Positions 10,241-40,619 of a stretch of DNA of 64,000 bases are shown piece after piece; the first letter of the stretch is position 1, and every line of letters starts with the position of its first letter. The translations under genes and the position numbers were made by a program. The notes beneath the pieces are model-generated. The model was not told the DNA's origin. It saw only the letters and a program-made list of their open reading frames with translations, and searched no databases. The stretch is from Clostridium niameyense (GTDB lineage: Bacteria; Bacillota; Clostridia; Clostridiales; Clostridiaceae). The stretch spans positions 1,888,989-1,952,988 of the forward strand of contig NZ_LN849007.1 of NCBI RefSeq assembly GCF_001243045.1. The letters are read 5' to 3'.

Positions 10241-10262
10241 TTCAAGCCGTTTCAATTAATAT

Positions 10263-10346
10263 CCTCATCTATCTGGAATTAGCACCACATATAAACATAG
10301 GTTGCTGGGCTTCATAGGGCCAGTCCCTCCGCCTCTCTAGATAAGT
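10263..10346 (-). promoter_or_regulatory. SAM-I (S-box) riboswitch
   Basis: Classic S-box elements are present on the minus strand. They are CTTATCTAGAGAGGCGGAGGGA, broken here as CTTATCTAGAG then AGGCGGAGGGACTGGCCC, followed by TATGAAGCCCAGCAACC, GGTGCTAATTCC and GATAGATGAG. P1 pairs CTTATCT with AGATGAG. The aptamer lies directly upstream of a terminator and metF. SAM binding should terminate transcription of metF, the activation protein and metH. Confidence 0.97.
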
Positions 10347-10360
10347 TTTTATTTTGAATC

Positions 10361-18353: not shown

Positions 18354-18628
18354 TATAAAAAACCTTTCATCCCTAAAGGGACGAAAGGTTAACTTCCGCG
18401 GTACCACCCAAATTGCAATAAGCCTGCTTAAAATGCATAAACAATAATTTATACAATCCAAAGATAAGGTTTTGGAAACCTCTAAGCCTACTTTAATACA
18501 ATTTCGGTTAGAAACTCTGAGATGTTCTTCACTATAGAATATTTATGGAACTCACACCCTCATCCACTCGCTTTAAAATACATCTATACTTACTCTTCTC
18601 TTCATAGCTTTTATAGTCTACACTTTAT
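18354..18628 (-). promoter_or_regulatory. T-box leader, asparagine specific
   Basis: The minus strand carries the T-box sequence GGGTGGTACCGCGGAAGTT, followed by the terminator AACCTTTCGTCCC / GGGATGAAAGGTT and a T-tract (18355-18390). Upstream stem I elements include GAGAAGAGTAAGTA and AGCGAGTGGATGAGGGTGTGAG, broken into these pieces in the usual order. The specifier loop region TGAAGAACATCTC holds an AAC codon at 18524-18526. Uncharged tRNA-Asn should stabilise the antiterminator and switch asnS on. Confidence 0.95.
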
Positions 18629-37037: not shown

Positions 37038-38957
37038 ATGAAGAATTCACAATATTACATAAAAGTATCAACCGGATGTCCAGTAACTAATGTAGCTGAT
37101 ATAGATTTTAACATAAAAAACATATTAAAGTGCATAGATAAAGCTTTAAATGATAATTCTAAATTTATAGTATTACCAGAATTGTGTATAACTTCTTATA
37201 CTTGTGGAGAACTTTTCACCCAAAGCTTACTTTTAAAAGGAGCCCTTAACGGACTATATTCTATATGCAAATATTCAACTGATAAAGATATTTTAATAGC
37301 AGTAGGTGCTCCTCTTTTATATAAAAATACTTTATATAATTGTGCCTTTATAATATTTAAAGGAAAAATATTAGGTGTAGTTCCCAAAAGTTATCTCCCT
37401 AACTATACAGAATTTTATGAGAAAAGATGGTTTACTGAAGGCCTAAACTTAATAAACAAAAAAATAGATCTATTTTTCCAACAAGATATTCCCTTTGGAA
37501 CAAATTTAATTTTTAAAAGTGGTATATTTAAATTTGCTTTTGAAATATGTGAAGATTTATGGGTAACAATACCACCTAGTAGTTATCTTTCTTTAATGGG
37601 GGCAAATATAATAGGTAATTTATCTGCCTCTAATGAAATTGTAAGCAAGGCCGACTATAGGAGAAATTTAATTTCATCTCAAAGTGGTAGATGCATGGCT
37701 TCTTATGTTTATTCTTCTTCAGGAATTTATGAATCATCTACAGATTTAGTTTTTAGTGGTCATTTGTTAATCGGAGAAAATGGCTCTATTTTAAAAGAAA
37801 ATAATAGGTTTCAAAGAGATAATGAAGTCATAACTTCGATTATTGATGTGGATAAACTTAACAATGAGAGATTAAAAAATATAAGCTTTAAAGATAATTA
37901 TAAATCTATTAATTATGAACCTTATGAAATAGATTTTCAATTTGACAATACTGATATATTAAATTTCGACAGATCTGTTAGCAAATACCCTTTTGTACCT
38001 TCTAAAGAATCTGAAAGAGAAATAAGATGTAAAGAAATATTCAATATTCAAACTTCTGCCTTAGCTAAAAGGATAGAACACACTAAACTAAAAAAAGCTG
38101 TTATAGGAATATCTGGAGGATTAGATTCAACCTTAGCATTACTTATTACATCTAAAACCTTTGATATGTTAAACATACCTAGAAAAAACATAGTAACTAT
38201 TACAATGCCTGGTTTTGGAACTACAGATAGAACTTATAATAATGCAGTAAATTTATGTAAAAATTTAAATACTGATTTAAGGGAAATTAATATAGTTAAA
38301 TCATGCTTACAACATTTTGAAGACATAGGGCATGATGTTAATATACATGATGTAACTTACGAAAACGTTCAAGCTAGAGAAAGAACTCAAATTCTTATGG
38401 ATATTGCAAATAAAGAATGTGGACTTGTCATAGGAACAGGAGATTTATCAGAGTTAGCTTTAGGTTGGTGCACTTATAATGGCGACCATATGTCTATGTA
38501 TAGCGTAAACTGTTCTATTCCCAAAACATTAGTAAGATATTTGGTAAAATATGTAGCTTTAAAAGAAGTTTCTAAAAAGGTTTCTAAAATACTTATAGAT
38601 ATATTAGATACACCTGTAAGTCCTGAATTACTTCCTAAAGATAAAGAAGGTAAAATATCACAAAAAACAGAGGAGATAGTAGGACCTTATGAGTTACATG
38701 ACTTCTTCTTATATTACTTTATACGTCAAGGAGCTACTCCAGACAAAATAATAAATTTAGCAAAAGTAGCATTTAAAGATAATTATTCTGAAGAAGTTAT
38801 AGAAAAATGGTTTAACTACTTTATTAAAAGATTTTTCACTCAACAATTTAAGCGTTCTGCAATACCTGATGGTCCTAAGGTAGGAACTATAAGTCTATCT
38901 CCTCGTGGAGATTTTAAAATGCCATCAGATGCAAGCTTTAATCTTTGGAAAAACTAA
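37038..38957 (+). CDS. nadE: Glutamine-dependent NAD+ synthetase
   Basis: A 639-residue two-domain enzyme. Residues about 1-300 form a nitrilase-type glutaminase with the Glu-Lys-Cys triad in VLPELCIT, VPKSYLPN and FEICEDLW. The C-terminal half is the ATP-dependent synthetase with P-loop GISGGLDSTLAL near 360 and GTGDLSELALGWCTYNGDH near 475. It converts deamido-NAD to NAD using glutamine nitrogen. ATG 37038 follows TTGGAGGAATTAAA. It stands alone and ends at a long terminator hairpin. Confidence 0.96.
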   Translation: MKNSQYYIKVSTGCPVTNVADIDFNIKNILKCIDKALNDNSKFIVLPELCITSYTCGELFTQSLLLKGALNGLYSICKYSTDKDILIAVGAPLLYKNTLYNCAFIIFKGKILGVVPKSYLPNYTEFYEKRWFTEGLNLINKKIDLFFQQDIPFGTNLIFKSGIFKFAFEICEDLWVTIPPSSYLSLMGANIIGNLSASNEIVSKADYRRNLISSQSGRCMASYVYSSSGIYESSTDLVFSGHLLIGENGSILKENNRFQRDNEVITSIIDVDKLNNERLKNISFKDNYKSINYEPYEIDFQFDNTDILNFDRSVSKYPFVPSKESEREIRCKEIFNIQTSALAKRIEHTKLKKAVIGISGGLDSTLALLITSKTFDMLNIPRKNIVTITMPGFGTTDRTYNNAVNLCKNLNTDLREINIVKSCLQHFEDIGHDVNIHDVTYENVQARERTQILMDIANKECGLVIGTGDLSELALGWCTYNGDHMSMYSVNCSIPKTLVRYLVKYVALKEVSKKVSKILIDILDTPVSPELLPKDKEGKISQKTEEIVGPYELHDFFLYYFIRQGATPDKIINLAKVAFKDNYSEEVIEKWFNYFIKRFFTQQFKRSAIPDGPKVGTISLSPRGDFKMPSDASFNLWKN

Positions 38958-39242: not shown

Positions 39243-39668
39243 CTATTTGTATATGTCTACTACTAATCCTGTTATATCATCTATAGTTTTAGCTATATCT
39301 AAATTATCCTTTTCTGAATCTAGCAGCATTTCTGTAAGATCTTTTAGCTTTTCATCTATAGTCTCTACAGTTATGTAGTATTGAGTTTGCCAAAAACTTA
39401 TATCTTTTTTTACACTATACATATACTGCAATACTGATTTTAAATATTCTTTTATTAAATTTTTATAAGCTCTTACATCAGCATAACATTTAGTTATAAC
39501 TAATCTATTACCTTTTTTCTTTATATCATCTAAGATTTTTTTAAGTTCCTGCTCTGATTTTTGTTGCCTTGCAAAATTAAAATTCTGCGAAAAACCTCTT
39601 TTATTTCCTACAAGTTTTCTATTCTCTGAAGGTATAGGTGTATTTGTCCCAACTCTTTTTATTTCCAA
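39243..39668 (-). CDS. yaaR: YaaR-family protein (DUF327)
   Basis: A 141-residue helical protein of the YaaR/DUF327 family. It has a disordered, basic N-terminus (RVGTNTPIPSENRKLV), then three or more helices with QKSEQELKKILDDIKKKGNRL and ADVRAYKNLIKEYLKSVLQY. The start is a TTG at 39668, four bases after AAGGGGTGG. Its function is not established. The leader upstream contains the tandem hairpin RNA element and two terminator-like hairpins, so expression may be attenuated. Confidence 0.85.
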   Translation of the reverse strand: MEIKRVGTNTPIPSENRKLVGNKRGFSQNFNFARQQKSEQELKKILDDIKKKGNRLVITKCYADVRAYKNLIKEYLKSVLQYMYSVKKDISFWQTQYYITVETIDEKLKDLTEMLLDSEKDNLDIAKTIDDITGLVVDIYK

Positions 39669-39737
39669 AAAACCACCCCTTAAATTTCTTGTTATATTAA
39701 TATTATATTATATTTTTTATTAAAAATATATAAAAAT

Positions 39738-39798
39738 GGCAGGAATCTATAAAAAATCCTACCAAAACAATAAAAGACTGATAATGGTATCAGCCTTT
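39738..39798 (-). terminator. Two successive terminator-like hairpins upstream of yaaR
   Basis: On the minus strand AAAGGCTGATA / TATCAGTCTTT with a CCAT loop (39773-39798) is followed by TATTGTTTT. Then GGTAGGAT / ATTCCTGCC (39738-39764) is followed by ATTTTTATA. Both lie between the tandem RNA motif and the yaaR start. Confidence 0.65.
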
Positions 39799-39807
39799 AG
39801 ATATGTT

Positions 39808-39894
39808 ATATAATCTCCCGACCTTTGTCGAGTATGTTATTCATTTTTAGAAAGGATATATGGGATATAGTCTCCTAACCACTGCTAGGTATGT
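39808..39894 (-). ncRNA. Tandem two-unit structured RNA motif of unknown class
   Basis: Two 30-base units, at 39865-39894 and 39808-39837, are spaced by 57 bases. On the minus strand each reads ACATAC, a 5-bp hairpin with four-base loop, then GGAGAYTATAT. The flanks are identical while the stems differ: TAGC-AGTG-GTTA in the first unit and CGAC-AAAG-GTCG in the second. The changes preserve pairing, with a G-U pair valid only for the minus-strand RNA. ATA and TAT can close the unit below an internal loop. A promoter sits just upstream and terminators just downstream. It matches no riboswitch I know. Confidence 0.55.
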
Positions 39895-39909
39895 TTAAGA
39901 ATCATATAT

Positions 39910-39937
39910 TTTATATTTACATTATTGCCTCAAACAA
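39910..39937 (-). promoter_or_regulatory. Candidate promoter of the tandem RNA / yaaR leader
   Basis: Minus-strand TTGTTT and TATAAA are 16 bases apart and would start transcription about ten bases before the first ACATAC unit. Confidence 0.45.
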
Positions 39938-40028
39938 TAGTTATTATATCATTAAATTAAAATTTATACAACATAAATTCAAAAAAAATTAATATTTTTT
40001 ATAAATTTCTATCTTTAAATTCCATAAA

Positions 40029-40619
40029 CTACAAATCTAGCGAAATTTTTATCTTAGAATCTAAAAGTTTCATGAATTTATCCGACAAAGTTGCCACATG
40101 TCTACCTAACCTAGCTTTAGATACTACTCTTATTTGCTCTGCTAAAACTGTTCCTGTTATCTCCATTTTTTCACCTTCTACAAGTTGGAAATCTCCATTT
40201 CTTATAGAAATATGTACTGCTATTTTTTTAGGTCTGTTTGAAATTGGCACTACTATAGTTGTAGGTGCATTTTGATTTCCTGTATCATTTTGTATTATTA
40301 TTACAGGCCTAATTTTATTTTCTTCTGAACCTATATTTTGACCTAATTCACATGTCCATACTTCCCCTCGCTTTGGAACAACTCTAATTCTATTCTTAAC
40401 ATTATCATTCATTTCTATACCATCATTTACCCATTCAACATATTTATACAATCTTCCTATATCATAAGATCTTTCCTTTGAACGTCTTATATGTTTATTT
40501 TGATGCAATTTATTATTTATCTTATGTATATAATCTTCTATTAATTTATGTATTTGTTGTTCTGTATCACATATGTATTTATCTAATTCTTCCTTATTCA
40601 TTTCCTTTAAATTTTTCAT
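40029..40619 (-). CDS. MazF/PemK-fold protein with N-terminal helical extension
   Basis: 196 residues. Residues about 82-196 form a MazF/PemK domain (RGEVWTCELGQNIGSEENKIRPVIIIQN, seen as RGEVWTCEL ... RPVIIIQND, then TTIVVPISNRPKK and GTVLAEQIRVVSKARLG). Typical MazF toxins are about 115 residues, so the first 80 residues are an added charged helical region (MNKEELDKYICDTEQQIHKL). MazF enzymes cleave mRNA. No antitoxin gene is found on either side: upstream is a divergent chromate transporter, and downstream is the tandem RNA. It could be a self-contained or chromosomally tamed nuclease. ATG 40619 follows GGGGGAAAGAGTA. Confidence 0.88.
   Translation of the reverse strand: MKNLKEMNKEELDKYICDTEQQIHKLIEDYIHKINNKLHQNKHIRRSKERSYDIGRLYKYVEWVNDGIEMNDNVKNRIRVVPKRGEVWTCELGQNIGSEENKIRPVIIIQNDTGNQNAPTTIVVPISNRPKKIAVHISIRNGDFQLVEGEKMEITGTVLAEQIRVVSKARLGRHVATLSDKFMKLLDSKIKISLDL

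Follow-up and report, generated by a model that had tools for sequence, protein, structure and literature searches.

A tandem-hairpin RNA strictly linked to a PemK/MazF-type gene in clostridia, with single-unit copies in phages: a candidate RNA antitoxin

In a 64,000-nucleotide stretch of the Clostridium niameyense genome (the window), the minus strand at positions 39738–39937 carries two hairpin units of one plan, spaced 57 bases apart, downstream of a PemK/MazF-family gene and upstream of yaaR. To which of its neighbours this RNA belongs, and what it might do there, is the question raised by the locus. A first-pass annotation had described two 30-base units with the flanks ACATAC and GGAGAYTATAT and with stems of 4–5 bp, and had read them as a candidate riboswitch or small RNA upstream of yaaR. 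Both units and their flanks were confirmed (Table 1). However, each unit extends to a second conserved CATA and is 36 nt long, running from ACAUA through a 6-bp hairpin, whose 4-nt loop has a final G, to AGAYUAUAUNN and the second CAUA. GGAGAYTATAT occurs twice in the window compared with 0.23 times expected from shuffles, and the fold of the 231-nt region was more stable than those of shuffled sequences (z −3.3). The default repeat search of the window did not list the unit pair. The G-U pairs in the stems are compatible with a minus-strand RNA only, in agreement with what had been said of the compensating changes. Folding tools, which are blind to pseudoknots, predicted the hairpin only, and the invariant flanks of the units show no covariation. 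Comparison with Rfam gave no match at the RNA site (best sub-cut-off score, 23.2 bits; 49 needed). The window also holds T-box (18374–18614), SAM (10262–10347), and THF (2695–2795) riboswitches on the minus strand, all above the Rfam gathering scores.

Table 1 Features of the RNA locus in the window.
Feature	Position	Strand	Description	Basis
PemK/MazF-family protein, proposed toxin	40029–40619	−	196 aa; N-terminal extension of ca. 80 residues	
Second promoter candidate	39943–39971	−	TTGTAT-17-TATAAT	
Promoter-like site of the small RNA	39908–39937	−	TTGTTT-18-TAAAAT	position conserved
Unit 1	39859–39894	−	ACATA, 6-bp hairpin (39889–39874), AGACTATATCC, CATA	covariation
Unit 2	39802–39837	−	ACATA, 6-bp hairpin (39832–39817), AGATTATATAA, CATA	covariation
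Intrinsic terminator of the small RNA	39764–39798	−	11 pairs, T-rich tail	terminator scan, fold
Second terminator-like hairpin	39733–39763	−	not in the terminator scan list	fold, sequence

A blastn search with 176 bases of the region against 206 genomes of one family matched 16 other clostridial genomes at E values from 7e-18 to 3e-5, in addition to many chance-level matches. Both units were mostly covered in 15 of the 16; the match in L045 covered the first part only, yet that locus has both units. RNAalifold recovered the two window hairpins from an alignment of the 17 RNAs, in which 99.0% of 204 stem cells were paired. Covariation in this alignment was 0.444, compared with 0.285 ± 0.025 after shuffling (reached in 0 of 500), and it dropped to 0.123 or less once the partner was slid. 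Two-sided changes were found in 6 of the 12 pairs, a count attained by 17 of 500 shuffles. Among 58 single units (alignment A4), double changes occurred at all six pairs with a covariation of 0.623 (shuffled, 0.327 ± 0.021; 0 of 500), and the 54 distinct units likewise had double changes at all six pairs, with 97.8% of the stem cells paired. Left out of A4 were two host units (the insertion-shifted unit 2 of L080 and the decayed unit 2 of the first L079 RNA copy), the viral contigs L130, L133, L136, and L140, which are identical or nearly so around the unit, one of two identical G178 units, and two units found later (L173 and the G177 solitary unit). The stems, which had been said to keep their pairing, are of 6 bp and not 4–5 bp. 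A flank-only pattern gave 4 matches in 3 of 14 genomes compared with 2 for the reversed control, which is the chance level, a loose unit pattern gave scattered single fuzzy matches and the pair nowhere outside the window, and a DNA search of plasmids and phages with the whole region gave no match.

A TTGNNN-16/18-TANNNT site ends 13–22 nt 5′ of unit 1 in 22 of 23 RNAs. With sites counted at 10–25 nt, the number remained 22 of 23, compared with a mean of 1.3 and a maximum of 6 in dinucleotide shuffles of the same stretches; the sole RNA lacking it is the second copy of G177. The promoter that had been placed 5′ of the units is thus supported by its conserved position, but not by a general promoter scan of the window alone, which found 9 promoters (11.4 expected) and did not list this one. 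Two terminator-like hairpins had been noted 3′ of the units. The first was found by a terminator scan (1 found, 0.0 expected), and the second was recovered in the fold but not in the scan. The tetramer CAUA stands at 87 of 92 repeat ends. In 21 of 23 RNAs, unit 1 begins with the pentamer UACAU, which is replaced by AACAU in the window and L031; unit 2 seldom begins with UACAU. Covariation, promoter, terminator, and the lack of an Rfam match support the reading of the element as a new small RNA.

The other half of the original proposal, a riboswitch or leader controlling yaaR, draws on the position of yaaR (DUF327; 39243–39668, minus strand) 3′ of the RNA, an arrangement found in the window and L031 only. 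In other clostridia, 26 of 26 yaaR loci, taken with flanks of at most 4 kb from a scan of genome contigs with YaaR, gave no match to the covariance model at E values up to 1. Elsewhere, the downstream genes differ among neighbourhood groups, and some are on the other strand. Furthermore, the terminators 3′ of the RNAs have unrelated sequences, lie at variable distances, and by eye do not evidently overlap the units. With 26 of 26 other yaaR loci lacking the RNA and other genes downstream elsewhere, control of yaaR was rejected as highly improbable. In the window and L031, yaaR and a gene for an NAD synthetase with a CN-hydrolase domain (37038–38957, plus strand) adjoin the RNA and its PemK gene by chance. 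As a check, it had been suggested to look for recurrence upstream of one gene family; the constant partner proved to be the PemK gene upstream of the RNA, not yaaR.

The only Pfam match of the upstream gene product at E values up to 0.001 was PF02452 (E 1.2e-27, residues 83–194). Solved MazF chains match this protein at E 1.8e-17, with about 40% identity over the catalytic domain as judged by eye. PADLOC did not match it, and an AlphaFold2 prediction made with three homologues was uninformative (mean pLDDT 39). The RNA lies 3′ of a PemK/MazF gene on the same strand in the window and in 21 of 21 RNA-positive genomes; the partner proteins of the relatives have 197–199 aa. The distance from the toxin stop codon to the first unit 1 is 50–153 bp in 22 loci, and the second L079 RNA copy starts at 224 bp. 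The RNA model R1 (E < 1e-6) selected 21 of the 206 genomes of the family, and the toxin profile A2 (E < 1e-93; next match, 7e-27) selected the same 21. The probability of this overlap is 4e-29 when the genomes are taken as independent, which related species are not. An order-level R1 search of 225 genomes, mostly the same as the 206, added no genome; searches with RNA models over more than 40 genomes used strict filters, by which weak matches are lost. Weaker PemK matches (E up to 1e-15) were found in 174 of the other 185 genomes, most of those listed being short MazF frames of the ordinary kind. A class-level search of 391 sampled genomes with the toxin profile gave strong matches in five known positives and weak ones (E 6e-31 to 4e-26) in three further genomes, at whose loci R1 was absent. 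Carriers of the gene–RNA pair (the module) include C. ganghwense (G013, L021) and C. hydrogenum (G007, L010).

By their flanking genes, the 22 loci including the window fall into eight neighbourhood groups, and toxin and RNA alone are common to all. No other ORF of at least 80 aa is shared between the groups, and the cross-group clusters from a small-ORF search for a protein antitoxin overlap the RNA or the toxin start on the other strand. Two diverged tandem repeats are present in all 21 genomes. G177 (L079:1345–1594) has two RNA copies in tandem behind one toxin, in the first of which unit 2 has decayed. According to PMC8634880, B. subtilis MazF recognizes the pentamer UACAU, and its residues G18, R25, P26, and T48 take part in RNA binding. 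By our own mapping, these residues correspond to G97, R104, P105, and S127 of the window protein; the first three are invariant in 22 proteins, and S127 is a change from threonine.

Weak R1 matches in G178 proved to be single units amid phage-type genes. A unit pattern matched 14 viral contigs and 17 of the 206 genomes, all module-carrying, and its reversed control matched none of the genomes. A second pattern matched 16 viral contigs (12 known and one, L173, accepted as new), compared with one for a version with wrong spacing. The matches in L172, L175, and L176 lie inside ORFs and were taken as chance, and L174, in a short ORF with 5 of 6 pairs kept, was left out of the count. In all, 15 viral contigs from IMG/VR hold a single unit. 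Model R2 (E ≤ 0.005) found units in 21 of the 206 genomes, namely those carrying the module. Solitary units lie at six places in 4 of these 21 (G152, G177, G178 with three, and G179) and in 0 of the 185 module-free genomes, a restriction with a p value of 8e-5 if the genomes are independent; G177 to G179 seem to be closely related. The solitary unit of G152 (L083:1501–1536) lies outside the module and without phage genes, and is perhaps a decayed copy.

The phage unit mostly lies after the T-run of a terminator (none is evident in L131, L134, L136, and L140) and usually 5′ of a ribosome-binding site. In L137 (2802–2837), it lies directly behind a tRNA gene, whose anticodon by eye is that for Asn. 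At 12 of the 14 distinct phage loci, a gene for a small protein of the phrog_3928 kind lies close by on the downstream side. A phrog_36 transcriptional regulator precedes the unit in L084 and L086, HNH and terminase genes follow in L086, and further phage loci resemble these two by eye. The phrog_3928-kind gene (E ≤ 1e-6) is present in 33 of the 206 genomes, 9 with and 24 without the module. A unit lies 5′ of this gene, either immediately or with one gene between, in 3 of the 9 compared with 0 of the 24 (p 0.015); the other 6 module genomes have no unit before it, and G178 has one at 2 of 3 copies. Of 30 leaders of this gene, 20 were inspected. The unit was present in 3 of the 8 that came from module genomes but in none of the 12 that came from module-free genomes, and several of the latter have terminator, ribosome-binding site, and gene without the unit. 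The unit-bearing contigs L132 and L128 best match G178, but have nearly as good relatives in the module-free genomes G131 (L132) and G154 (L128), and these relatives carry no unit. In INPHARED, the L139 phage leader had no match, and the longer L132 and L128 regions had only distant relatives around the terminase and portal genes. Because near relatives in module-free genomes carry none, the unit seems to be an optional addition to phage leaders, and has up to now been observed only in module hosts. These results suggest that the single unit is a phage-borne antitoxin mimic.

RNA structure, transcription signals, linkage, and phage copies are thus sequence-level results, and we propose from them, at a probability of roughly 0.6, that the RNA serves as antitoxin to the PemK/MazF-type toxin in a two-component toxin-antitoxin module. 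The protein would be a sequence-specific endoribonuclease that binds the repeats, and the RNA would occupy it as a pseudo-substrate, perhaps trimmed by the toxin, as ToxI is with ToxN. If the supply of fresh RNA ceased, for instance because a phage had turned off transcription in the host, the toxin would be released. Phages meeting the module would encode a single repeat within a leader transcript to mimic the antitoxin. We infer the toxicity of the protein, its neutralisation by the RNA, and the phage mimicry from the following. The long PemK gene and the RNA are confined to the same 21 of 206 genomes, lie next to each other on one strand, and stay together across the eight neighbourhood groups without a conserved protein-antitoxin ORF. 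The stems covary, the promoter-like site is conserved, CAUA bounds the repeats, and UACAU, the pentamer that B. subtilis MazF cuts, opens unit 1 in most species. The residues matching RNA contacts of MazF (G97, R104, and P105) are invariant, the RNA is doubled in G177, single units occur in 15 viral contigs, and solitary units occur in 4 of 21 module genomes and 0 of 185 others. On the other hand, the toxin-first order offers no obvious guard against toxin excess, T48 of MazF is replaced by serine, the window and L031 have AACAU and unit 2 seldom has UACAU, folding tools that cannot show pseudoknots yielded hairpins only, and 6 of 9 module genomes with the small phage gene have no unit before it. 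Long PemK relatives at five plasmid loci of Bacilli and Fusobacterium also lack such an RNA; therefore, these proteins may be held in check by the N-terminal extension or by some other factor.

The same units have been weighed under other readings. The repeat may serve the PemK enzyme as a site of recognition or processing and not as an inhibitor, with the host RNA acting as a sponge or sensor; the protein would then bind or cut unit-bearing RNAs, phage leaders included. CAUA or UACAU bounding the units, the phage unit behind the tRNA gene in L137, and the sharing of the unit by phage and host are consistent with this. However, a phage would be expected to lose its own cutting site, and the stem has been retained with covariation, which makes this reading unlikely. 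Less likely still, the unit originated as an element of phage leaders to which a late-gene regulator of the phage or of the host binds, with the host RNA as a decoy and the link to PemK secondary. The recurring phage position near late genes fits this, but the strict link is to PemK, and related phages in module-free genomes lack the unit, indicating that it is not needed for late expression. A type I-like arrangement, in which the RNA pairs with the toxin mRNA and does not bind the protein, would agree with the shared locus and the RNA's own promoter-like site. However, the RNA is on the same strand as the toxin and not antisense to it, and predicted duplexes with the toxin start were no better for cognate pairs (mean −24.1) than for non-cognate pairs (−23.9), with cognate ranks from 1 to 22 of 22. 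Antisense pairing was therefore rejected as very improbable.

Among known systems, the antitoxin reading comes closest to type III. According to PMC5086642, type III systems (ToxIN, CptIN, and TenpIN) combine a repeat RNA with an endoribonuclease-type toxin of the MazF/Kid fold class and have no protein antitoxin. The module resembles them in having a small repeat RNA with its own terminator beside an endoribonuclease-type toxin gene, without a protein antitoxin. In the type III systems described there, the RNA is upstream in one operon with a single promoter and a terminator between, and the toxin belongs to the ToxN, CptN, or TenpN family; the repeat is pseudoknotted, and the toxin cuts the precursor RNA and is neutralised by the repeats. 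Here, in contrast, the toxin comes first, the RNA has its own promoter-like site, the toxin is PF02452 itself, and the repeats are predicted as simple hairpins with a linker, two in number and diverged. Because gene order, promoter, and toxin family differ, the module is a type III-like variant and not a type III system. It shares the toxin family PF02452 with type II MazEF/PemIK, but no MazE-like gene was found beside the toxin, and it has an N-terminal extension of about 80 aa and a strict RNA partner. The pseudo-ToxI of phage PhiTE (PMC3475682) is a phage sequence resembling the host RNA-antitoxin repeat, and its repeats were expanded for escape. The clostridial phages likewise bear a sequence like the host repeat, with a putative function, but the putative mimic is one complete unit, which several phages retain, with a covarying stem, at a leader position that recurs. 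By analogy, the closest mechanism is that of type III (ToxIN) and the closest phage counterpart is the PhiTE pseudo-ToxI.

A literature search of open-licence PMC, with most subscription journals outside its scope, found no description of a MazF/PemK-RNA system among the papers listed. The odds seem even that this is a new RNA-antitoxin class, in which a PF02452 toxin is held by a downstream tandem-hairpin RNA and clostridial phages keep a one-repeat standing mimic near late genes. If so, control by RNA antitoxins extends beyond the ToxN-like families to the large PemK/MazF family proper, and such systems can do without the type III gene order and shared promoter. In that case, the phage copies represent RNA antitoxin mimicry as a standing natural trait rather than in escape mutants, and a conserved natural RNA counter-defence against a MazF-type system. 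Covariance models R1 and R2 offer a simple way to find both sides of this conflict.

Some long PemK relatives were found apart from the RNA. Those at L123 (2507–3076), L124 (2453–2911), and L125 (2438–3070), on Brevibacillus, Aneurinibacillus, and Paenibacillus plasmids, adjoin ParM partition genes and have neither such an RNA nor an annotated antitoxin; an imperfect repeated motif lies upstream in L123 and L125. Two divergent frames of the long PemK type, with 212 and 232 aa, occur at G141 (C3:53703–54143; E 7e-27) and L117/G212 (E 6e-31; unmatched by R1), and these two may form a sister group.
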